A stretch of DNA of 63,410 nt from a virus, in IMG/VR virus record IMGVR_UViG_3300010375_000021, positions 1 through 63,410 of that record. One strand, given 5' to 3'. Each line of letters opens with the position of its first letter. Position 1 is the first letter of the stretch. The notes beneath the pieces were generated by a model. It was given only the letters and a program-made list of their open reading frames with translations, was not told the DNA's origin and ran no database searches. A program made the position numbers and the translations under genes. Of the stretch, positions 15,313-57,067 are shown one piece after another.

Positions 15313-16653
15313 TTAATAGACCCTGGTGCTATAGGTAACGTCGGTTGGTCGGATATCGCGTGCGCAGAGATACCTATCGGCATCCATCCCATGATCGTCC
15401 TCTTTAACTGGGGCATCACCCTTTTTCTGTCCACCGCGCGTATCCCACACATACGAGGGGAACTCTTCAATGGTACAGGTTGGCTTTTTTGCTCGAACAA
15501 GCTCCTGATCGCGCTCCACAAGACAATCCTCAAAATACATCAGGCGCGGTCTATGATCGCCTGCGGGGCGTAAACGTGCAGCCATAGCCTGTATGCCCTC
15601 AGCCACAGCTTTGTGCGCAGGTGTGGTAAGTATACCAGTGTGCCTGGTGAACGTCTCGCGCCCTTCTGCATCATGATCTGCATAAATCACGCGTGGTAGG
15701 GGATCGCCTCCCTGCTGTCCCCAGCGCGAGAGTTGCTTAACCTGTCTTGCGTGCTCCTCAACTAACCGCTTTGTCATGTAGATTTCACGATAGCAGTAGT
15801 AGCGCCCATCAGGGTCTTCTGCGTACCACTTTGCAACGAAGGGGTTTACGTATCCGAAGTCCAGAGACATGTAGCGCGGCCACGCCAGGGGGATATCAAA
15901 ACGCTTAATGACGTTATGAGCCCGATCAAAGCTGTCTTCGTAGACTGTCCCCTCAGCTGCTGCCCAGATGCCATAGCGGTAGCGAGCGAGACGAACGCCC
16001 GTCAGGCCACCCAGGATACCGAAGATGTAGCGCCTGCCTTCTTCTGTCCAGTCCTGCGTATGTAAGTCGAAATAGCGCGGATTGTCTTCATGCCGGGAAA
16101 GCAAGCGCGTCGTGATGCCAGCATTCATTCTCAGGTTGAGCCAGTGCTCCGGTGCGTCGGGGTTAAAATCCATAATTACTTGCTGCCAGGGCATTACTCC
16201 TTTGCGGAGACGCATGCGAGCAAATTCTAAATGATCTATCTCGCACTCAGTCGCCTCATTGATATATACCCCGTCACATTCAAAGCTCTTGAGTCGCCCT
16301 GGTCGATCTAGTCCATTGACGGCGAGGAAGCTCCCATTGGGATAGATAAATCCGGCAGGTTTGACCTTATTGCCACCGAAATAATAAACGCCCTCATGCT
16401 CATTCAGCACGTCGTTCTGATACGTGGACATCGCAGAGGCTGCCAGGTCGGTATTGTAGCGACGAGTGACTAGCCACTTCGCACCGGGATAAGTGAGCAA
16501 GAGAATATGGATATAGTAGAGTATCCCGAAAGTTTTGCCTGTACCCGCAGGCCCATCGATCCCCACCTCGGTATCGTGACAGGACCCGAGTTGCCACACA
16601 CCACCGCGTATCTCAGGCGAGGGAATATGCAGTTCTTGAATGGTGACGTTCAT
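15313..16653 (-). CDS. terL: Terminase large subunit
   Basis: Start chosen at ATG 16653, overlapping the small subunit stop (ATGA). The 446-residue product has the P-loop GPAGTGKT at residues 34-41, a Walker B-type CDGVYINEATE and an RNase H-type nuclease half beginning SLDFGYVNPF. Later acidic sites include YADHDAEGRE and DDHGMDADRY. It should translocate DNA into the prohead and cut it. Motifs appear complete. Confidence 0.92.
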   Translation of the reverse strand: MNVTIQELHIPSPEIRGGVWQLGSCHDTEVGIDGPAGTGKTFGILYYIHILLLTYPGAKWLVTRRYNTDLAASAMSTYQNDVLNEHEGVYYFGGNKVKPAGFIYPNGSFLAVNGLDRPGRLKSFECDGVYINEATECEIDHLEFARMRLRKGVMPWQQVIMDFNPDAPEHWLNLRMNAGITTRLLSRHEDNPRYFDLHTQDWTEEGRRYIFGILGGLTGVRLARYRYGIWAAAEGTVYEDSFDRAHNVIKRFDIPLAWPRYMSLDFGYVNPFVAKWYAEDPDGRYYCYREIYMTKRLVEEHARQVKQLSRWGQQGGDPLPRVIYADHDAEGRETFTRHTGILTTPAHKAVAEGIQAMAARLRPAGDHRPRLMYFEDCLVERDQELVRAKKPTCTIEEFPSYVWDTRGGQKKGDAPVKEDDHGMDADRYLCARDIRPTDVTYSTRVY

Positions 16654-26149: not shown

Positions 26150-26414
26150 CACAGATGTGTGTTCTTTGACTCCTTCGCGTTTCATGGTCTGGAAGCCGTT
26201 CACAGTCAACAGCTAAAGCAACTGGGACCAGACTCAGCTCTTCGAGGGCTACGTTAGAAGCGAATACATAGGTACATCCGAGTGCGACGCCAGCTCGGAT
26301 CTCTACGGTGTAACATTAAACAGGTGAAGCGACCGGACGAAGCCAGTGTGTTGCACATTAAACCGCTTACTAACCTTGTCGAGGCGAACCTTACCCTAGC
26401 AATAGGAGGCTCAA
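26150..26414 (+). ncRNA. IscB-associated omega-RNA (HEARO type)
   Basis: The 330 bases between the regulator and IscB hold no gene. They contain paired segments GTCTGG/CCAGAC (26187-26192 with 26228-26233) and ATCCGAG/CTCGGAT (26276-26282 with 26294-26300), the repeated CATTAAAC around GTGTAAC and GTGTTGC, and a Shine-Dalgarno AGGAGG just before the IscB start. HEARO RNAs lie directly upstream of iscB and act as its guide-scaffold. The guide would be about 16 bases at the 5' end, outside the element. The exact 5' boundary is not visible. Confidence 0.7.
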
Positions 26415-27701
26415 TTGAGCAACGTTTTTGTCCTTGATGCTAATAAGCAAATTTTGAATCCTGTCCATCCTGGAGGGGCTCGTCGTTTGCTCTCATCAGG
26501 TAAAGCGTCTGTATTCAAACGTTACCCTTTTACAATTATCCTCAAACAGTCCGTAGAAAAGCCAGATATACGACCACTCAGAATCAAGATAGATCCTGGG
26601 AGCAAAACGACAGGAATCGCAATAACGAATGATGCAAGTGGAGATGTGATCTTTGCTGCCGAATTAACCCATAGGGGACAATCTATCAAGCTTGCGATAG
26701 ATAATCGCACGGTCGTGAGGCGCTCGAGGCGTCAGAGGAATACAAGATATCGCAAGCCTCGCTTTCTTAACAGGAGAAAACGTAATGGATGGTTAGCGCC
26801 ATCCTTAGAGAGCAGGCTGTCCAATATCATAACCTGGGTTAGTCGGTTAAAGAGACTAACGCCGATCACTGCTCTTTCTCTGGAATTAGTAAAATTCGAT
26901 TTCCAGAAAATGGACAATCCTGAAATCGGTGGAGTGGAGTATCAACAGGGCGTATTAGCAGGCTATGAGGTGAGAGAGTACCTGCTGGAAAAATGGGGAC
27001 GTACATGTGCCTATTGCGGGGCACGGGATATTCCATTGCAAGTAGAACATATTCAACCCAAAGCCAGAGGAGGTACTGACCGAGTCAGCAACCTCTGTTT
27101 AGCCTGTGAACCATGCAATAACGCCAAAGGAAAACAAGATGTAAAAGTATTCCTGTCGAACAAGCCAGAGTCACTAATGCATATTCTCTCACAAGCAAAA
27201 GCACCATTAAAAGATGCTAGTGCCGTCAATTCGACCCGTTGGGCGCTTTTCAATCGCCTTAAGGCGTTAGGCTTACCTGTTGAATGCGGGTCTGGAGGGC
27301 GCACGAAGTTCAATCGGGTGTCCAGGGGGCTATCAAAGAAGCATTGGATTGACGCGGTTTGTGTAGGTAAAAGCACCCCTGGACACGTCAAGGTTGCTCA
27401 TGTTGTCCCTCTGCTTATTACCGCCAAAGGACATGGCCACAGGCGAATGTGCCACACCAATAAGTACGGATTTCCCAAGCAGCACAGACAGCGCCACAAG
27501 CAGTACTTTGGCTTTCAGACAGGAGACATGGTGAAGGTGACTATTCCACGCGGTAAATATGCAGGGGTATATGTCACAAGAATAACTGTGAGATCGCGCG
27601 GCGCTTTCGAATCACGTTTAAATGGACGGAATGTCTCGTTCAATCACAAACATTGTACTGCTCTTCATCATGGCGACGGTTACCAGTATGCTTACAAGTA
27701 G
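26415..27701 (+). CDS. iscB: IscB RNA-guided nuclease
   Basis: The 428-residue protein starts at TTG 26415, five bases after AGGAGG. It has the PLMP-type N-terminus (VFVLDANKQILNPVHPGGAR), RuvC-I with D60 (IKIDPGSKTTGIAI), an Arg-rich bridge helix near residues 102-123, RuvC-II with E157 (ALSLELVKF) and YQQGVLAGYEVREYLLEKWG. An HNH domain follows with CAYC, EH at 211-212 and CLACEPC. RuvC-III has H310 and D313, and the C-terminus ends FGFQTGDMVKV-type. All catalytic residues appear present. It would cut DNA guided by the upstream omega-RNA. No transposase (TnpA) is adjacent. Confidence 0.93.
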   Translation: MSNVFVLDANKQILNPVHPGGARRLLSSGKASVFKRYPFTIILKQSVEKPDIRPLRIKIDPGSKTTGIAITNDASGDVIFAAELTHRGQSIKLAIDNRTVVRRSRRQRNTRYRKPRFLNRRKRNGWLAPSLESRLSNIITWVSRLKRLTPITALSLELVKFDFQKMDNPEIGGVEYQQGVLAGYEVREYLLEKWGRTCAYCGARDIPLQVEHIQPKARGGTDRVSNLCLACEPCNNAKGKQDVKVFLSNKPESLMHILSQAKAPLKDASAVNSTRWALFNRLKALGLPVECGSGGRTKFNRVSRGLSKKHWIDAVCVGKSTPGHVKVAHVVPLLITAKGHGHRRMCHTNKYGFPKQHRQRHKQYFGFQTGDMVKVTIPRGKYAGVYVTRITVRSRGAFESRLNGRNVSFNHKHCTALHHGDGYQYAYK

Positions 27702-50526: not shown

Positions 50527-50595
50527 GTGGCTTGACAAACCGTGACAAATCGGGTATTTAGTTTAAAAAGTGTTTTAGTCGAAAGAGAGGCAACC

Positions 50596-51492
50596 ATGCA
50601 AGAATTGGATACATTCATCGAAGAGACACCACTGGAAGAGTTGGACGTAGTAGAACAGCCAGAAGTGAGCCCTGTCCCTGTTGTGAGCGTGCTGGATATG
50701 CCCGTTGCACGTCTTCAGATCGTCCAGACTGGCGAGGTCATGAGAGAGGGCTATCCTACTCGCCCGGATGTAGAGCCGACACTTGCTCAGAACAGTGATG
50801 GTCTCTGGCTTATCACGGTGCGACGACAGGGAGAACACGGCAAGTTTGGAGTGCCTTATATTGGCTCAGAGATCCTGCTAGCAGATGCTGAGATGGGCTT
50901 CGTTGTCGTGTTAGTGGCGTATCATGGCACGGAGACGTATGGTAGGAAGCGCGATAAGCACGTCTCAAAAGGTCAGTTCTACCGTTTCTATCGCCAGATT
51001 GAGACGGGGGAATGGCAGCGCCAGAACTGGCAGAAATTGAATGATGAGACACGTCAGATGGTGCTCGGACTGGAAAAGCCGGAATGGGCGCGCAAGCCTG
51101 GGAAGCTTTCCAGTGAGCGCAAACCACCGGCAAAAATGGTCGAGATGGTCTCCTATAAGGTCGTCAGAGTGATAGGCGGGCGTTACTACTCGCTGTATAA
51201 GCCTGATGTGGAGTATGTTCTGGGCCAGCGCATGAAGCAACCGGCAAGGCCTGGACATGCCGGGGGATACTTCACGTTTCCAACGAGTGAGATGGGAGTA
51301 AAAAATCTGGAGATTTGGACACACTGTCTGCCATTTCACGATGAGATAGAGACGCCTGAGTTAGCGCTACTTGAATGTGAGATAGGCGGAAAAGTAATTT
51401 CGTATGGACATAAACTTTGCTCCACATATCTTTGTCCAATACGAGTCATCAAGGTTGTAAATAGAGACTCGCATGCGCATTGCCACGTGTAA
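50596..51492 (+). CDS. Gene carrying the GIY-YIG cassette at its 3' end
   Basis: Start chosen at ATG 50596 with GAGAGG upstream. The 298-residue product has an acidic start and a strand-rich body (YKVVRVIGGRYYSLYKPDVE, YFTFPTSEMGVKNLEIWTHC). The end reads EIGGKVISYGHKLCSTYLCP. The same end (EIGGRIINYGHKLASTYLCP) is found again after the GIY-YIG gene at 52446-52541. So the coding end appears to have been replaced by the incoming cassette. Function unknown. Confidence 0.65.
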   Translation: MQELDTFIEETPLEELDVVEQPEVSPVPVVSVLDMPVARLQIVQTGEVMREGYPTRPDVEPTLAQNSDGLWLITVRRQGEHGKFGVPYIGSEILLADAEMGFVVVLVAYHGTETYGRKRDKHVSKGQFYRFYRQIETGEWQRQNWQKLNDETRQMVLGLEKPEWARKPGKLSSERKPPAKMVEMVSYKVVRVIGGRYYSLYKPDVEYVLGQRMKQPARPGHAGGYFTFPTSEMGVKNLEIWTHCLPFHDEIETPELALLECEIGGKVISYGHKLCSTYLCPIRVIKVVNRDSHAHCHV

Positions 51493-51502
51493 AGCCGACT
51501 CG

Positions 51503-51586
51503 TGGTATAATGAAGAGGTAAATGTTTTGCCCTGGCGCTGCTTGCGACGGCCCAGGGCGCGACGATAAGCATAGGAGGCTTACCGT
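51503..51586 (+). promoter_or_regulatory. Promoter and leader of the GIY-YIG gene
   Basis: TGGTATAAT at 51503-51511 is an extended -10. The leader then reads ATGTTTTGCCC and holds a hairpin GCCCTGG/CCAGGGC (51529-51535 with 51552-51558) before AGGAGG and the ATG at 51587. The same order of parts precedes the HNH gene at 56157-56242. Confidence 0.7.
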
Positions 51587-52450
51587 ATGGACACTATATC
51601 TCACATTGCCCTCAAGAACAACCCCAAGTATTATGTTTATGCCCTGTCTTATCCCGAATCTATGGGCGGCCATGTCTTCTACATAGGCAAAGGTAAACGA
51701 AACAGAATTTCCTCCCACGAATGGCAAGCTAAAAAAGGTGCCAAATCTTATAAGTGCAATGTTATCCGTAAAATTTGGGCGCGTGCGGAGAATGTTGTCA
51801 GGTCAATACTGGCATTTTTTGAGACGGAGCAAGAAGCCTACGAATATGAAAAAGCACTAATTTTCTTCATGGATGGACTTACAAACCAAACAGACGGTGG
51901 AGATGGGACATCTGGATATATTCCCACAGATGAACTTAGACAAAAATGGAGTGAAACACGAAAGTCCAGTCCAGCCTATCAAGAGGCGCGCCGAAAGTTG
52001 GCAGAGTCGCGCAAAGGTTCAAGGCACTCAGAGGAGACACGGCAGAGGATGAGTGAATCAGGCAAGAAGAAACCCCCTCTGACAGAAGACGCACGTCGCA
52101 AAATTGTCGAGGCCAACACTGGTCGCCATTTTCCAAAGGAATTTGGGATGAGAGTAGCCGAGCGGAATCGACTTCGCGGCCCGACTTCAGAAGAAACACG
52201 GCAAAAAATGAGCGATGCGCACAAGGGACAAAAACGCCCGCCGCGCTCAGAAGAATGGCGACGCAATATGCGCGAGTCCCACATGAGGCGTAAATTAGGG
52301 CTAGTAGTAAAGGAAATGGAAACCAAGTATTGCGAACATTGTGGAGATCCATTGCCGCCTCAGCCAGCTAACGGGCGACGATATAAATATTGTCATCCCC
52401 CTAAAAAGTGTAAATACCTCGCTAGGCGGCTACGAGAGAAGTCCCACTGA
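51587..52450 (+). CDS. GIY-YIG homing endonuclease
   Basis: The 287-residue protein has the GIY-YIG core (KYYVYALSYPESMGGHVFYI then GKGKRNR), a family-type ETEQEAYEYEKALIFFMDGL segment and, after residue 120, repeated SEETRQRMSESGKKK-type NUMOD3 DNA-binding motifs. The C-terminus has a Cys pair set (CEHCGDP...CHPPKKC). Members of this family cut one site and spread by homing. Here it lies between an intact-looking host gene copy and its orphaned 3' end. Confidence 0.9.
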   Translation: MDTISHIALKNNPKYYVYALSYPESMGGHVFYIGKGKRNRISSHEWQAKKGAKSYKCNVIRKIWARAENVVRSILAFFETEQEAYEYEKALIFFMDGLTNQTDGGDGTSGYIPTDELRQKWSETRKSSPAYQEARRKLAESRKGSRHSEETRQRMSESGKKKPPLTEDARRKIVEANTGRHFPKEFGMRVAERNRLRGPTSEETRQKMSDAHKGQKRPPRSEEWRRNMRESHMRRKLGLVVKEMETKYCEHCGDPLPPQPANGRRYKYCHPPKKCKYLARRLREKSH

Positions 52451-52541
52451 GATCGGCGGTAGGATAATCAACTATGGGCATAAGCTCGCCAGTACGTATC
52501 TTTGTCCGATTCGTATACTGGAGATCCGCCAACGATCGTGA
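52446..52541 (+). pseudogene. Orphaned 3' end of the interrupted gene
   Basis: Thirty-one codons reading TEIGGRIINYGHKLASTYLC then PIRILEIRQRS match the C-terminus of the gene at 50596-51492. No start codon or promoter fits a separate gene. It overlaps the GIY-YIG stop by five bases. Confidence 0.75.
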
Positions 52542-52563
52542 GGGGAATGAGAGACCACCACGA

Positions 52564-52596
52564 GGGGCCAGGCTGGTTGTGCTCTGGCCCCTTTTT
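52564..52596 (+). terminator. Rho-independent terminator
   Basis: GGGGCCAG (52564-52571) pairs with CTGGCCCC (52584-52591), followed by TTTTT. It ends the interrupted gene and its cassette. Confidence 0.85.
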
Positions 52597-52678
52597 CGTA
52601 GAGAGCGCCGGGAGCGATTCGCGATGTTCTATCTTATACAGACGCGTTCTTTCTGGGAATATGAAATCCGGCAACAAA

Positions 52679-52712
52679 AAAGAGCAAACGGAATACAAAA
52701 CGTCTGCTCTTT
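52679..52712. terminator. Hairpin in the gap after the GIY-YIG region
   Basis: AAAGAGCA (52679-52686) pairs with TGCTCTTT (52705-52712). A second hairpin GAAGAGGCG/CGCCTCTTC follows at 52771-52801. Both lie in a gap without clear genes. Confidence 0.5.
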
Positions 52713-52926
52713 GAGCAACTGTCATGCTCAAGGGATGAGACGTGCATCGACCGAACAATCTGAAAAGTGGGAAGAGGCGACCTTGTAATGTGCGCCTCTT
52801 CATAGGGATTTAGGGTGGCAATGGGAGTTGCCTCTACCTACATAGACACAATCACGTCGAAAGTATGACAATTCCCTGACATTTTTGGGACTTTTGGGTA
52901 AGTGGGCAAATTGGCATGAGAAACAC

Positions 52927-52955
52927 TTGACAATTAATCAGATTTATATTAGAAT
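52927..52955 (+). promoter_or_regulatory. Promoter for 52993-54541
   Basis: TTGACA (52927-52932), 17 bases, TAGAAT (52950-52955). The first gene starts 38 bases later after AAGGAG. Confidence 0.75.
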
Positions 52956-52992
52956 ACTAATAGACAAGAAACACAAATCAAGGAGAAGAAAA

Positions 52993-53229
52993 ATGGACCT
53001 GCGAACTGCTTTAAAAGAGACGGGCATTGCTGAAGCCACCGTGAATAGTCTTGTTTATACCGTCACTGATGACAATGCTGATGAGAGCAACGACTTCAAG
53101 GACTTTGCTCTTGCTATTCAGGTTGGCGCAATGCCACCGCATTCTACTAAATTTTATTCCACTCTTGATGAGATTGAGCAGGCATGTTCTGATCTCGAAT
53201 GGAGCGCTGTGGAACCGGAGGAAATCTAG
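52993..53229 (+). CDS. Hypothetical protein
   Basis: Start chosen at ATG 52993 with AAGGAG upstream. The 78-residue product MDLRTALKETGIAEATVNSL begins with an HTH-like helix pair and ends acidic. The next GTG overlaps its stop. Confidence 0.5.
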   Translation: MDLRTALKETGIAEATVNSLVYTVTDDNADESNDFKDFALAIQVGAMPPHSTKFYSTLDEIEQACSDLEWSAVEPEEI

Positions 53230-53678
53230 TGGCTGGCAAAGGAGCCCCAGAGGGCAATCAATACGCAAAGAAGGAAGAAAAAGGTCGGACTATCAGTCTC
53301 TACCTTGCCGGTGATGATTTTGCCCTTATCCGTCAGATCCTGCAGGATCGAGGCGAGGATAGTTCGGACGAGAAGTGTGTTGAGTTAGCAAAAATGGCTG
53401 CTAAAAGTGGCGTTTATCAGTTGGTGATAGCCAAGAAGAGTGAGAACGATCAATCACTTGAAGCAGCCATGCGCGAGACGGTTGATCGACTTTTTAATAT
53501 GGTACGAACTAAAAAAGAGAATAAATTGTTCTATACCATTATTCTCTATCGAAAGCACTGCAATGATCTTGTTGAGGTGCTCCACCCCGAGGAGAAGTTG
53601 GCAGAAGTCTCCTTTAATGAAAAATCGTATCCCGTAGAATGGTACACATCAGTAGACGGGTTGGTCTACGTAGATTGA
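53229..53678 (+). CDS. Hypothetical protein
   Basis: GTG 53229 overlaps the previous stop. The 149-residue product MAGKGAPEGNQYAKKEEKGR has the short KGAPxGNQYA motif common to small phage packaging-type and other DNA-binding proteins, then helices (DFALIRQILQDRG). No definite family. Confidence 0.5.
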   Translation: MAGKGAPEGNQYAKKEEKGRTISLYLAGDDFALIRQILQDRGEDSSDEKCVELAKMAAKSGVYQLVIAKKSENDQSLEAAMRETVDRLFNMVRTKKENKLFYTIILYRKHCNDLVEVLHPEEKLAEVSFNEKSYPVEWYTSVDGLVYVD

Positions 53679-53689
53679 GGAGGTCCATT

Positions 53690-54181
53690 TTGACTACACC
53701 TAAACTCGTGATATTTGACGTGGATGGCACGCTCCATGCTACTAAATCAGGTGGACAATTCCGTGAAACCGCTGATGATTGGGAGTGGATGCCAGGACGG
53801 CTGGAGAAGCTAGCCCAACTCAGAGAGCAGGGCGCGATGATCGCCTTATGCACTAACCAAAGAGGCGTGTGCTTCCCCTGGTCCAAGTTCACTGAGGAGC
53901 AAATACAGATGATGCTTGATGCCTGCGCTGCTGAGATCGGAGCATCTATCGTCAAGGTCTCGTATGCCAGCACTCACGCTAAGGCACTGGACAAGTATCG
54001 TGTGGCAGTTGATGAACGCAGTAAACCTGCTGGTACGATGGTTAAGGAGATCCTGGATGAGACCGGCATCGCAAAGGAAGGTGCCTTGTTCGTTGGGGAT
54101 CGAGACGAAGACAAGGCCTGCGCAGAGGCGGCGGGTGTTGCGTTCCAGTGGGCGAAAGATTTCTTCGAAGATCAGCAATAA
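53690..54181 (+). CDS. HAD-family phosphatase
   Basis: TTG 53690 is six bases after GGAGG. The 163-residue protein has motif I FDVDGTLH, motif II CTNQRGV, a Lys-containing AKALDKYRVAVDER region and motif IV VGDRDEDKAC. This is the pattern of histidinol-phosphatase/PNKP-type HAD enzymes. It may remove 3' or sugar phosphates during DNA or nucleotide repair. Confidence 0.75.
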   Translation: MTTPKLVIFDVDGTLHATKSGGQFRETADDWEWMPGRLEKLAQLREQGAMIALCTNQRGVCFPWSKFTEEQIQMMLDACAAEIGASIVKVSYASTHAKALDKYRVAVDERSKPAGTMVKEILDETGIAKEGALFVGDRDEDKACAEAAGVAFQWAKDFFEDQQ

Positions 54182-54268
54182 CTCTGATGTTTTTCAGTAA
54201 TCCTCTGATGCCAATCGGGGCGGAAGAGGGTACGATTGAGAGGGCAAATGCCCAGGAAGGAATAAGAC

Positions 54269-54541
54269 ATGCTTCAAGACCAGGAAAGACTTAATGCTGT
54301 ACGTAAAGCAATCGACGAATATCGCGTTCAGATCCCCAATGAGGTACATCGCGATGCCGGAAATATTCTCAGAGCGCTGGCGTATATTGATGCGGCGAGA
54401 CACGAGATGATTATCAATCAGCATGACCCGTTTCGCAATGAAGCAGAGAAACGGATTAAGCAATTTGAAATTGAGTTATACGAGTGGTGCGCCGCAGGGA
54501 CATCTAGCCCTCGGATCGGTTATGTACCACCAGAGTCATAA
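54269..54541 (+). CDS. Hypothetical protein
   Basis: The 90-residue product MLQDQERLNAVRKAIDEYRV is helical and charged. It is the last rightward gene before the lysis genes on the other strand. A strong terminator follows. Confidence 0.5.
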   Translation: MLQDQERLNAVRKAIDEYRVQIPNEVHRDAGNILRALAYIDAARHEMIINQHDPFRNEAEKRIKQFEIELYEWCAAGTSSPRIGYVPPES

Positions 54542-54560
54542 TGGTTCCATAGCATAAAGA

Positions 54561-54588
54561 AGCCTCGGTAGTGCTACCGAGGCTTCTT
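54561..54588. terminator. Strong terminator between convergent operons
   Basis: AGCCTCGGTAG (54561-54571) pairs with CTACCGAGGCT (54574-54584) around TG, then TCTTTTCG. It separates rightward genes from the leftward lysis genes and probably works in both directions. Confidence 0.85.
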
Positions 54589-54667
54589 TTCGTTTTCTTA
54601 CATCACACACCTCTCAGCGCTCTTCAACGACAGCCGAGTATGGATGATATGTACTCAGTATACCACA

Positions 54668-55129
54668 CTACTCAGGTTGTACTGCTGGCATGCTTTGCGA
54701 TGCCGTGAACAGTGCCGGATCAGGGGCTGCGCTTTGCACAACCACAGGCTGGAGATAGGCTTGCAATGCCTCGCTCACGGCCTGTTTGATGGCTTCCTGG
54801 CTCTGGGTGTAGGTCACGGCTGGCAAGTCTTTCTGTCCCTCTGCCCTCGCTGCGTCCAGGAGTACTGAGAGCGGTATCTCACCCGATGCTTTGAAGTACT
54901 TGGAGAGCACGGTAACGCCGACGAGAGCGCCCTCTCCGACCACTGAGATGATAAATGAACGCCAGTCAATAATCTGCCCATTGGTGAGCAGGGCAAAGCC
55001 CGCGATAGCCATATTGAGTACAACAGCGATAGCCACGTACTCAATGAGGCGCATCGTGGCGCGTTCGGCAGGCGTCTTGTCAGGCGGGACGACTACCTGA
55101 GGTGTGACGACAGGTGGTGTTTGCGTCAT
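54668..55129 (-). CDS. Holin candidate
   Basis: The 153-residue product has a Pro-rich start, two hydrophobic helices (VAIAVVLNMAIAGFALLTNG and FIISVVGEGALVGVTVLSKY) and a C-terminal Gln/Ala/Pro-rich tail. Two membrane helices next to the endolysin gene are typical for class II holins. It overlaps the endolysin stop by four bases. Confidence 0.65.
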   Translation of the reverse strand: MTQTPPVVTPQVVVPPDKTPAERATMRLIEYVAIAVVLNMAIAGFALLTNGQIIDWRSFIISVVGEGALVGVTVLSKYFKASGEIPLSVLLDAARAEGQKDLPAVTYTQSQEAIKQAVSEALQAYLQPVVVQSAAPDPALFTASQSMPAVQPE

Positions 55130-56121
55130 CCCGATATCCCCAGTTTCGCGAACAGATCAGCTATCGCAATGTTGGCCGTCTTTGCACTCGCTAGCACTGC
55201 GGGATTGACGCCTCCGTTGCCCAGTGTCAGCCCTGGAATGAGCTTCAAGAGTTCCGGGTTATCGAGATGCGCGATATAGGCATCCTCTAGCCCAGGCTGG
55301 CTGTCAAGCGCATGCGTTGGATCGTAGACCAATACCATGCGCTCAAAGATTTGCACCACTATCTTGACGCCCTTGATGGTCAGAGAGAGTTCGCCAGTCA
55401 GGGGCAATCCGGGCAATGGCAGGCTTTTACCATCAGGAGAGAGTTGCTTGTACAGGCCAAGGATGCCAAATGCCACGGTTTTCTTGTTCTGTTTGCAGGT
55501 CCACACGTCGCCTTTTTTGTTGGCGCTGTACCATGAGTCAAAACCAGGAGTAGAGGGTGAGTAGGTTTGCACTGAGGTATCCTCTCCAGTCTTCAGATAG
55601 TTGAACAATTCCGACCACGGGTAGTTCCCTGGACAGCGTGCCCGCGAGATAGGGCTGATATCCTTGTGTCCGATGATCCCGCCCGCTGCGTCACCTGCGC
55701 GCATGGGGATGTTGTGCCGCTCGCAAATACCCTTGATGAGTTTGAATGAGGCCTGCTTCTGCGCATCGGTCAGCGGCGTGCTGTTATCGTCGGTAGGATC
55801 AACGTGCTCAATGCTAATGGTGAGCAGGTTCAGGTTGATGTTTGTCGGAAGAAATGGGGCGTGGCCTTGCTGAAGCACACCATTTGCGCCCGCGCCATCG
55901 CTTTCTGAGACACACTGAACTATCGTGCCATCTTGACCGACGATATAATGTGAACTGGCCTGATTCGGATCGTGCTGGAAGAAGTTTGCTATGTTCTGAG
56001 GCGAGCCTCCACTCGCCGTTTTATGTAGCACAATCCATTTTGGTTTGTTACCCCAATAGCCGGGGAAGATATTGTTTGCCGGGACTGGCATTTGAATCGC
56101 CCCAGACTGACCTGCTGACAT
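55126..56121 (-). CDS. Endolysin: N-acetylmuramoyl-L-alanine amidase
   Basis: The 331-residue enzyme has an Amidase_2/PGRP domain with zinc ligands in WIVLHKTASGG (H33), SIEHVD and GIIGHKDISPISRARCPG. A C-terminal region with GLPLTGELSLTIKGVKIVVQ and ILGLYKQLSPDGKSLPLPGL looks like a cell-wall-binding part. The ribosome site AGGAGGAT lies before ATG 56121. It breaks the amide bond in peptidoglycan. Confidence 0.88.
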   Translation of the reverse strand: MSAGQSGAIQMPVPANNIFPGYWGNKPKWIVLHKTASGGSPQNIANFFQHDPNQASSHYIVGQDGTIVQCVSESDGAGANGVLQQGHAPFLPTNINLNLLTISIEHVDPTDDNSTPLTDAQKQASFKLIKGICERHNIPMRAGDAAGGIIGHKDISPISRARCPGNYPWSELFNYLKTGEDTSVQTYSPSTPGFDSWYSANKKGDVWTCKQNKKTVAFGILGLYKQLSPDGKSLPLPGLPLTGELSLTIKGVKIVVQIFERMVLVYDPTHALDSQPGLEDAYIAHLDNPELLKLIPGLTLGNGGVNPAVLASAKTANIAIADLFAKLGISG

Positions 56122-56156
56122 AGTATCCTCCTAAAGTGGATTAAAAAGTGGGAATA

Positions 56157-56242
56157 TGGTAAAATGTAGGGGTAATAATGTTTTGCCCCTGTAAGTGCTG
56201 ATAACACTCCAGGGGCGTGATGATAGCATTGGAGGTGCTACC
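56157..56242 (+). promoter_or_regulatory. Promoter and leader of the HNH gene
   Basis: TGGTAAAAT (56157-56165) is an extended -10. The leader reads ATGTTTTGCCCC, holds the hairpin GCCCCTG/CAGGGGC (56185-56191 with 56210-56216) and ends with GGAGG seven bases before the ATG at 56243. The whole arrangement mirrors the leader of the GIY-YIG gene. Confidence 0.7.
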
Positions 56243-57067
56243 ATGAGTGACACTATACCCCAAGACATCCCCAAGAAGCAATGCACTACTTGTCTGGTAT
56301 ACTTCCCTGCCACTACTGAGTATTTTCATGTAGGAAAAGACACCTTGTATGGATTGAGAAACCGGTGCAAACGTTGTCAAAAAGATCATGATAGATCTAG
56401 ATATCAGGCGCGCAAGGAGTCTGCTCAGGATATCCCACTTCCTGGTATCCTGTTCTGTCAGCAATGCAAGACAGAGCAACCTATAGATCGCTTCCACAAA
56501 AACCCCACCGGAAGATTTGGGATGGCGTCGCGTTGCAAAGATTGCGCTCAGGAGAGCACAGAAAACTATTACAAGTCCCCCAAGGGGCATGCTGTGCGCA
56601 AGATCTACAATAAGCAAAGATATGCAGAGAACAAAGATATCCAAGGAGCGAACCACAAGGTTTGGTACAAAAACAACAGAGACTATGTGCTGGCAAAAGA
56701 TCGGCAGTTTAGGAAAGACCATCCCGAGATCCTGAGTATGCGATGGAAGCGTTGGGCAAAAACAGAGAGAGGATACGAGCGATGTCGCATCCGCGTGCGC
56801 AATCGACAGGCAAGGAGAAAAGGAGCGGGGGGCAACTATGTCTATGCTGATATAGAGAAGCAATACAACCAGCAAAAAGGCTGCTGTTATTATTGCAATA
56901 TTAAGATAGGAAAAGGCAAGAGCGCCTATCATGTCGATCACATTGTTCCCATTTCTCGTGGAGGCTCGAATGATCCATCAAACCTAGTTCTGGCCTGTGC
57001 TAGTTGCAATTTAAGCAAGGGAGACAAACTCCTTTCTGAATGGCCTCAGGGTGGCAAATTGCTCTGA
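56243..57067 (+). CDS. HNH homing endonuclease with zinc fingers
   Basis: Start chosen at ATG 56243. The 274-residue protein has two treble-clef-like zinc repeats (CTTCLVYFPA...CKRCQKDH; CQQCKTEQPIDRF...CKDCAQE), a basic middle and an HNH domain with CYYC, VDHIVPISRGGSNDPSNLVL and CASCNLSKG. It points against the leftward lysis/tail genes, a usual sign of a recent homing insertion between genes. Confidence 0.85.
   Translation: MSDTIPQDIPKKQCTTCLVYFPATTEYFHVGKDTLYGLRNRCKRCQKDHDRSRYQARKESAQDIPLPGILFCQQCKTEQPIDRFHKNPTGRFGMASRCKDCAQESTENYYKSPKGHAVRKIYNKQRYAENKDIQGANHKVWYKNNRDYVLAKDRQFRKDHPEILSMRWKRWAKTERGYERCRIRVRNRQARRKGAGGNYVYADIEKQYNQQKGCCYYCNIKIGKGKSAYHVDHIVPISRGGSNDPSNLVLACASCNLSKGDKLLSEWPQGGKLL

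Follow-up and report, generated by a model that had tools for sequence, protein, structure and literature searches.

Homing endonucleases must cut the DNA of rivals while sparing that of their own phage, and little is known of how free-standing ones are restrained outside T4-like phages. In HEARO RNA (RF02033, the omega RNA of IscB), a structured RNA stands directly upstream of a phage HNH nuclease and serves as a guide of about 200 nucleotides that the nuclease binds. In phage T4, I-TevI, I-TevII, I-TevIII, mobE and segB have their ribosome-binding sites in hairpins beside their own promoters; these hairpins are separate for each gene, lie in the sense mRNA and involve late-promoter choice, with no antisense RNA reported (PMC2988022; PMC3014915). 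Antisense control is described for IS10/Tn10, a mobile element whose nuclease-type gene has its own sense promoter and whose short folded RNA-OUT (69 nucleotides, the first 35 complementary to the initiation region) lies over the translation start of RNA-IN (PMC5006887), and for symE-symR, in which the antisense RNA covers the Shine-Dalgarno sequence of the toxin mRNA (PMC3874152). The reverse promoter lies within the gene in symE-symR, in other 5'-overlapping type I toxin-antitoxin pairs and for the EcoRI and Eco29kI antisense RNAs. Here we describe a leader present twice in a viral DNA of 63,410 nucleotides (IMG/VR record IMGVR_UViG_3300010375_000021, positions 1 to 63,410; hereafter the window), 5' of a GIY-YIG and of an HNH homing endonuclease gene. 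We consider it likely (probability roughly 0.75) that this leader is a portable control cassette for homing genes, consisting of face-to-face promoters and a cis-antisense RNA over the Shine-Dalgarno sequence.

The locus compares most closely with IS10, with which it would share the mobile nuclease gene, the sense promoter and the short folded antisense RNA over the translation start; a putative reverse promoter was found inside the first codons, as for RNA-OUT and SymR. Whereas IS10 is one element with one transposase family, the present cassette serves unrelated nucleases and has two covarying stem-loops common to all. It differs from symE-symR and from the EcoRI and Eco29kI systems in belonging to phage homing nucleases rather than to host toxins or restriction enzymes, and shares no sequence homology with this group as far as tested (no Rfam match). 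In contrast to the individual hairpins of T4, a single conserved leader is present, with its fold kept on the antisense strand. Like HEARO, the HNH leader lies directly upstream of a phage HNH gene, but neither leader matched HEARO or any other Rfam 15 family up to E = 5. A search of the open-access literature, which leaves out subscription papers, gave no previous account of homing endonucleases under antisense control.

The two window leaders align along their full length at the positions given in a preliminary description of this DNA (51503-51589 for the GIY-YIG gene, 56157-56245 for the HNH gene). Pfam bears out its assignment of the two proteins to different nuclease families: a GIY-YIG homing endonuclease with NUMOD3 (51587-52450, plus strand; PF01541, PF22945, PF07460) and an HNH homing endonuclease (56243-57067, plus strand; PF01844, E = 2.6e-14). 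The core ATGTTTTGCCC has two exact copies in the 63-kb record, one per leader. Each leader opens with the extended -10 of a sense promoter, TGGTATAAT at 51503-51511 and TGGTAAAAT at 56157-56165 (both plus strand). The stems of the hairpin P2 differ yet pair, as previously noted: GCCCTGG (51529-51535) with CCAGGGC (51552-51558), and GCCCCTG (56185-56191) with CAGGGGC (56210-56216). Two features can be added. A second stem-loop, P3, with the Shine-Dalgarno sequence in its loop, lies at 51562-51586 and 56220-56244, again with stems that differ and both pair (AAGC/GCTT and AGCA/TGCT), and the similarity extends into coding sequence, where the proteins begin MDTI.. and MSDTI.. (ATGGACACTATA and ATGAGTGACACTATA).

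The leader was then traced in other phages, and a covariance-model search, proposed in the preliminary description, recovered it upstream of homing genes elsewhere. Pattern scans of IMG/VR yielded more leaders 5' of HNH and GIY-YIG genes, and a protein-alignment search gave 80 HNH relatives. Covariance model R1 was built from 12 leaders, including both of the window, which it matches with E-values of about 1e-21 to 1e-23; model R2 comprises the antisense core only, without promoter columns. R1 detected 44 leaders (37 distinct) among 91 sources and 60 sites in 38 of 48 whole phage records, with no match in 861 kb of other phage DNA. R2 gave further sites, including one whose phage is close to those of Lactobacillus. 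In IMG/VR phages, most of the records being metagenomic, more than 60 distinct sites with the leader were found by covariance model, and the leader is also present in cultured phages and on a plasmid. The cultured carriers, reached through the single site L310, are Lactobacillus helveticus phages AQ113 (HE956704.1, about 516-620) and CR191 and Bacillus phage vB_BhaS-171; blastn also listed S193 and T280 among Lactobacillus helveticus phages with the leader, and the plasmid is from Fructilactobacillus ixorae. With the exception of CR191, these carry the leader 5' of HNH genes. The overall spread covers Lactobacillaceae, Bacillus and GC-rich soil phages. A BLAST search of the window leaders against known phages gave no significant match, and the leader was missing from all ten cultured phages, plasmids or named records that were inspected because they encode related HNH proteins (Mycobacterium, Gordonia, Streptomyces, Synechococcus, Rhizobium, Arthrobacter, cyanobacterial, Deinococcus and uncultured phage). 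It was also absent from the phylum to which an Oscillospiraceae metagenome-assembled genome belongs, as sampled by 398 whole genomes, which is a weak negative. Matches in that metagenome-assembled genome (L129, a pattern match), at L307 and L308, and in Streptococcus IPP61 and Enterococcus Efs 1-1-1 were set aside as false or unsupported. The short frame beginning MFCP, pointed out in the preliminary description, is present in both window leaders but in only 3/61 family members; it was rejected as a leader peptide, ATGTTTTGCCC being found in only 3 of 61 leaders, and is probably incidental.

The genes beneath the leader encode homing nucleases that belong to four or more unrelated superfamilies. 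This is best seen at 23 R1 sites in whole phage records that were selected without reference to a gene: an open reading frame follows at 22 of them, and nearly all of these frames are recognisable nucleases, including HNH, HNH_3 with AP2, NUMOD4-HNH, endonuclease VII, GIY-YIG with NUMOD3 and Vsr/DUF559 with NUMOD3, besides one GIY-YIG-like frame without a Pfam match. A LAGLIDADG-like nuclease stands under leader L161 (LAGLIDADG_3 at 22.3 bits, just under the Pfam cut-off of 22.5). The downstream genes carry GIY-YIG, HNH, LAGLIDADG or Vsr-type domains, often with NUMOD or AP2. The two Vsr/DUF559-type genes with NUMOD3 repeats, at L278 (G012:41036) and L294 (G005:93357), may represent PD-(D/E)XK-like homing nucleases in phages.

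Comparison of related phages indicates that the leader is the constant part and the nuclease the exchangeable part of these genes, because nucleases have been swapped beneath it and because two phages differ by the reading frame only. In homologous phages, one site holds a LAGLIDADG-like gene (L161) or an HNH gene (L303/L181), with 83.7% homology between L161 and L303 running through the upstream flank and leader, breaking at the P2-P3 linker and resuming downstream. Relative to AQ113, the HNH frame of CR191 is cleanly removed from start codon to stop, while the leader is kept at 96% identity (L319, 1231-1291). The insertion is likewise absent from the related phage P185, where the terminase genes are adjacent. 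Elsewhere, a degenerate leader with both promoters and no intact nuclease downstream (L309, G050:10744-10810) is probably a decayed homing gene, and at L283 two back-to-back leaders about 240 bases apart (G021:15721-15833 and 16073-16178) each drive an HNH-type gene of their own, in opposite directions.

Both stem-loops are very strongly supported by covariation. In P2, stems of 7 bp and 4 bp are separated by a one-base bulge; P3 has about 9 pairs. Across 37 distinct leaders, double changes occur in 22 of 25 pairs, and the covariation score is 0.526, compared with 0.160 (sd 0.011) for shuffled and at most 0.101 for slid alignments; this alignment was fitted to the model, and MAFFT alignments, relied on equally, agree. 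The antisense core alone scores 0.672 against 0.242 when shuffled. Conserved unpaired bases include a UGAYGA-like linker and a CUGNAA-like P2 loop. In the window, the core of the putative antisense RNA occupies 51527-51587 (minus strand; R2 match, E = 1.5e-13) in the GIY-YIG leader and 56183-56245 (minus strand; E = 1.6e-11) in the HNH leader, with antisense folds of -28.4 kcal/mol (z -3.0) and -30.8 kcal/mol (z -5.3), respectively. P3 would form its first stem-loop and P2 (51529-51558 and 56185-56216, minus strand) its second.

A third complementarity, P1, joins bases at the sense start site with codons 4-6: GAGGTA (51515-51520) with TATCTC (51597-51602), spanning 51515-51602, and GGGGTA (56169-56174) with TACCCC (56256-56261), spanning 56169-56261. 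It covaries (GGGG/CCCC, GAGG/CCTC, GGTG/CACC) in the window leaders and most close relatives, and within-leader complementarity exceeds between-leader shuffles (4.54 against 3.87; reached by 0/300). P1 is absent in distant members, pairs at only about 75% in the 37 leaders and shows no strand preference; the idea that it closes a three-way junction in every leader, attractive on 12 leaders, was rejected on these grounds.

The pairing pattern indicates which strand carries the fold. RNA helices tolerate G.U pairs and not A.C pairs. Read on the sense strand, outer P2 comprises 395 Watson-Crick pairs, 30 A.C and 0 G.U by a fixed-arm count, with A.C at five pair positions, and P3 has 62 A.C against 3 G.U, usually one per hairpin and in either orientation; both window P3 hairpins have one (minus strand, 51562-51586 and 56220-56244, the latter with GGAGG at 56231-56235 in its sense-strand loop). 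Since a sense-strand A.C reads as G.U on the antisense strand, the fold appears to be kept on the latter. Since the same types of transition produce A.C and G.U alike, mutational bias can hardly account for a ratio of 30 to 0. For P3 alone, selection for a weak hairpin at the ribosome site of the mRNA could account for the bias; P2 lies away from that site. In agreement with the counts, the antisense core is the more stable in 58/62 leaders (means of -27.0 kcal/mol for the antisense and -21.4 kcal/mol for the sense strand; difference of +0.2 in shuffled sequences).

The leader appears to be bounded by promoters that face each other. The sense promoter of the form TTGCTT-17-TGGTATAAT has its -10 (at least 5/6) at this place in 60/61 leaders and TTG at -35 in 30/61. 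On the opposite strand, 57 of 61 leaders have a TAnnnT hexamer (at least 4/6 matches to TATAAT) whose distance from P3 is constant, compared with 1 to 5 of 61 in control windows shifted by 20-70 bases or taken on the other strand, and TTG lies 16-18 bases further upstream in 33/61, compared with 0 to 2 in controls. Its information content (T1 1.37, A2 1.39, T3 0.39, A4 0.68, N5 0.08 and T6 1.04 bits) gives this putative element the profile of a bacterial sigma-70 -10. In the window, the predicted elements on the minus strand are TATAGT in codons 3-4 (51593-51598) with TTGTTC (51616-51621) at a 17-base spacer for the GIY-YIG gene, and TATAGT in the first codons (56252-56257) with TTGCTT (56276-56281) at an 18-base spacer for the HNH gene. 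More generally, the antisense -10 occupies codons 2-5, which is why unrelated nucleases share an MDTIP-like start. The codon at the antisense -10 is NTA in 50/61 leaders, a figure somewhat favourable in that the choice of hexamer required TA, whereas only 20% of the NTN codons of the same frames end in A; in 10 leaders, the element falls in another reading frame. Owing to this NTA excess and the change of frame, the element is not a feature of the protein. Both promoters are also present at six R2 sites that were not used to build R2 (L304, L305, L306, L309, L310 and L311), of which L310 and L311 were also met by a pattern scan using the sense, not the antisense, promoter.

In the proposed mechanism, transcription of the nuclease mRNA would begin at the sense promoter, some 70 bases upstream of the start codon, and the opposing promoter, inside the first ~12 codons, would give rise to a short antisense RNA whose 5' end, about 7 bases past the -10, is predicted to lie close to the start codon (~51586 in the GIY-YIG leader, placed from the -10, and ~56245 in the HNH leader). 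Because the predicted start falls on the start codon, P3' would be the 5' stem-loop of the antisense RNA, carrying the complement of the Shine-Dalgarno sequence in its loop and followed by P2'. The two transcripts would overlap by about 70 bases, the whole 5' leader. As predicted sequence and fold, stable stem-loops complementary to the Shine-Dalgarno sequence and start codon are present, and their pairing with the mRNA leader would cover both and keep nuclease synthesis low, by analogy with the translational repression of IS10 RNA-OUT and SymR; RNase III cleavage and polymerase collision may act as further brakes. The A.C mismatch of P3 would lie at the ribosome-binding site of the mRNA and become a stable G.U in the antisense RNA, so that the mRNA hairpin could open while the antisense hairpin stays intact. 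The suggestion of a common control module, possibly an RNA regulator, made in the preliminary description thus holds as regards the unrelated nucleases and the covarying fold, and needs revision in that the fold behaves as an RNA of the antisense strand with its own promoter in the first codons.

Several points weigh against this reading. That the antisense RNA is made and represses, and where it ends, we infer from sequence, as we do the mRNA of the cassette. R1, the source of most leaders, contains the antisense -10 columns, leaving only the six R2 sites free of that influence, and, the leaders being related, the counts run higher than the number of independent events. Taken singly, the -35 elements are weak, with TTG in only about half of the leaders, and a simple promoter scanner called neither promoter in the window. 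The strand energies of the GIY-YIG leader are nearly equal (-28.4 and -28.0), no intrinsic terminator for the antisense RNA was found, and P1 is left unexplained.

The main rival is a scheme of the T4 type, in which structure acts only in the sense mRNA: P3, together with P1, would hide the ribosome-binding site in read-through transcripts, while transcripts from the own promoter, lacking the 5' arm of P1, would be translated, as for I-TevI, mobE and segB. This precedent is well documented (PMC2988022; PMC3014915), the Shine-Dalgarno sequence does lie within P3 of the sense mRNA, the P1 5' arm coincides in part with the expected transcription start, P1 forms in folds of read-through RNAs, and the complementarity of P1 surpasses shuffles. 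A fold selected in sense RNA should, however, show common G.U and rare A.C pairs, and the reverse is seen, even in P2; moreover, many leaders have a poor P1 or none, and the conserved antisense -10 and its NTA codon are left without explanation. A position of the own promoter that would leave the 5' arm of the inhibitory helix out of its transcripts fits P1 in a subset of leaders, but P3 lies wholly downstream of the promoter. We regard this scheme as unlikely in place of antisense control, though it may act in addition through P1.

Other explanations fare less well. The conserved unpaired bases and strict architecture would suit a sense leader RNA serving as the operator of a phage or host translational repressor, or as a small-molecule sensor, with the antisense -10 incidental; given the strand bias of mismatches, and a spread in which Lactobacillaceae, Bacillus and GC-rich soil phages would all need the same ligand, this seems improbable, and no conserved partner gene came to light, though none was sought. 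Lower still do we rate the idea that the stem-loops act as folded single-stranded DNA rather than as RNA, serving recombination or transposition at the 5' boundary of a mobile cassette: it would accommodate the nuclease swap between L161 and L303/L181, where homology breaks off within the leader, between P2 and P3, and the loss of precisely the reading frame from CR191 with the leader kept, but flanking homology alone explains such exchange, and the location on the Shine-Dalgarno sequence and start codon, with convergent promoters at the right spacing, fits RNA control. Chance, or similarity limited to common promoter elements, which the preliminary description named as its possible refutation, draws on nothing more than the shortness of the two leaders; it is already refuted by covariation, and more than 60 leaders and the empty 861 kb of control DNA leave it virtually no weight.

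A single control module extending across HNH, GIY-YIG, Vsr-type and LAGLIDADG-like genes would mean that the control, not the nuclease, is the stable part of these mobile genes. A bolder extension, which we put forward tentatively and hold to be doubtful, sees in the cassette an 'antisense operating system' independent of nuclease family, beneath which unrelated selfish nucleases come and go. Its stems and loops would diversify in the manner of plasmid incompatibility groups, the RNA of a resident nuclease would silence in trans those incoming copies that belong to its group (multicopy inhibition), and the nucleases of one phage would be mutually insulated. The presence of the leader in cultured Lactobacillus helveticus and Bacillus phages makes these proposals directly testable, and the two covariance models offer a sequence handle for new homing genes.

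Further features of the window concern the setting of the nuclease genes. The GIY-YIG gene is flanked by the 3' end (51380-51492) of the gene at 50542-51492 and by a diverged second copy of that end (52450-52541), the two being identical in 19/29 residues, as if the homing event had brought along a replacement gene end. The closest portal protein to that of the window phage is from a Microcystis phage (29%). A HEARO RNA (RF02033, 101.8 bits) lies at 26205-26394, directly 5' of an IscB-like gene (RRXRR and HNH), and this unit (26205-27701) gives the phage a nuclease element of a third, RNA-guided kind.

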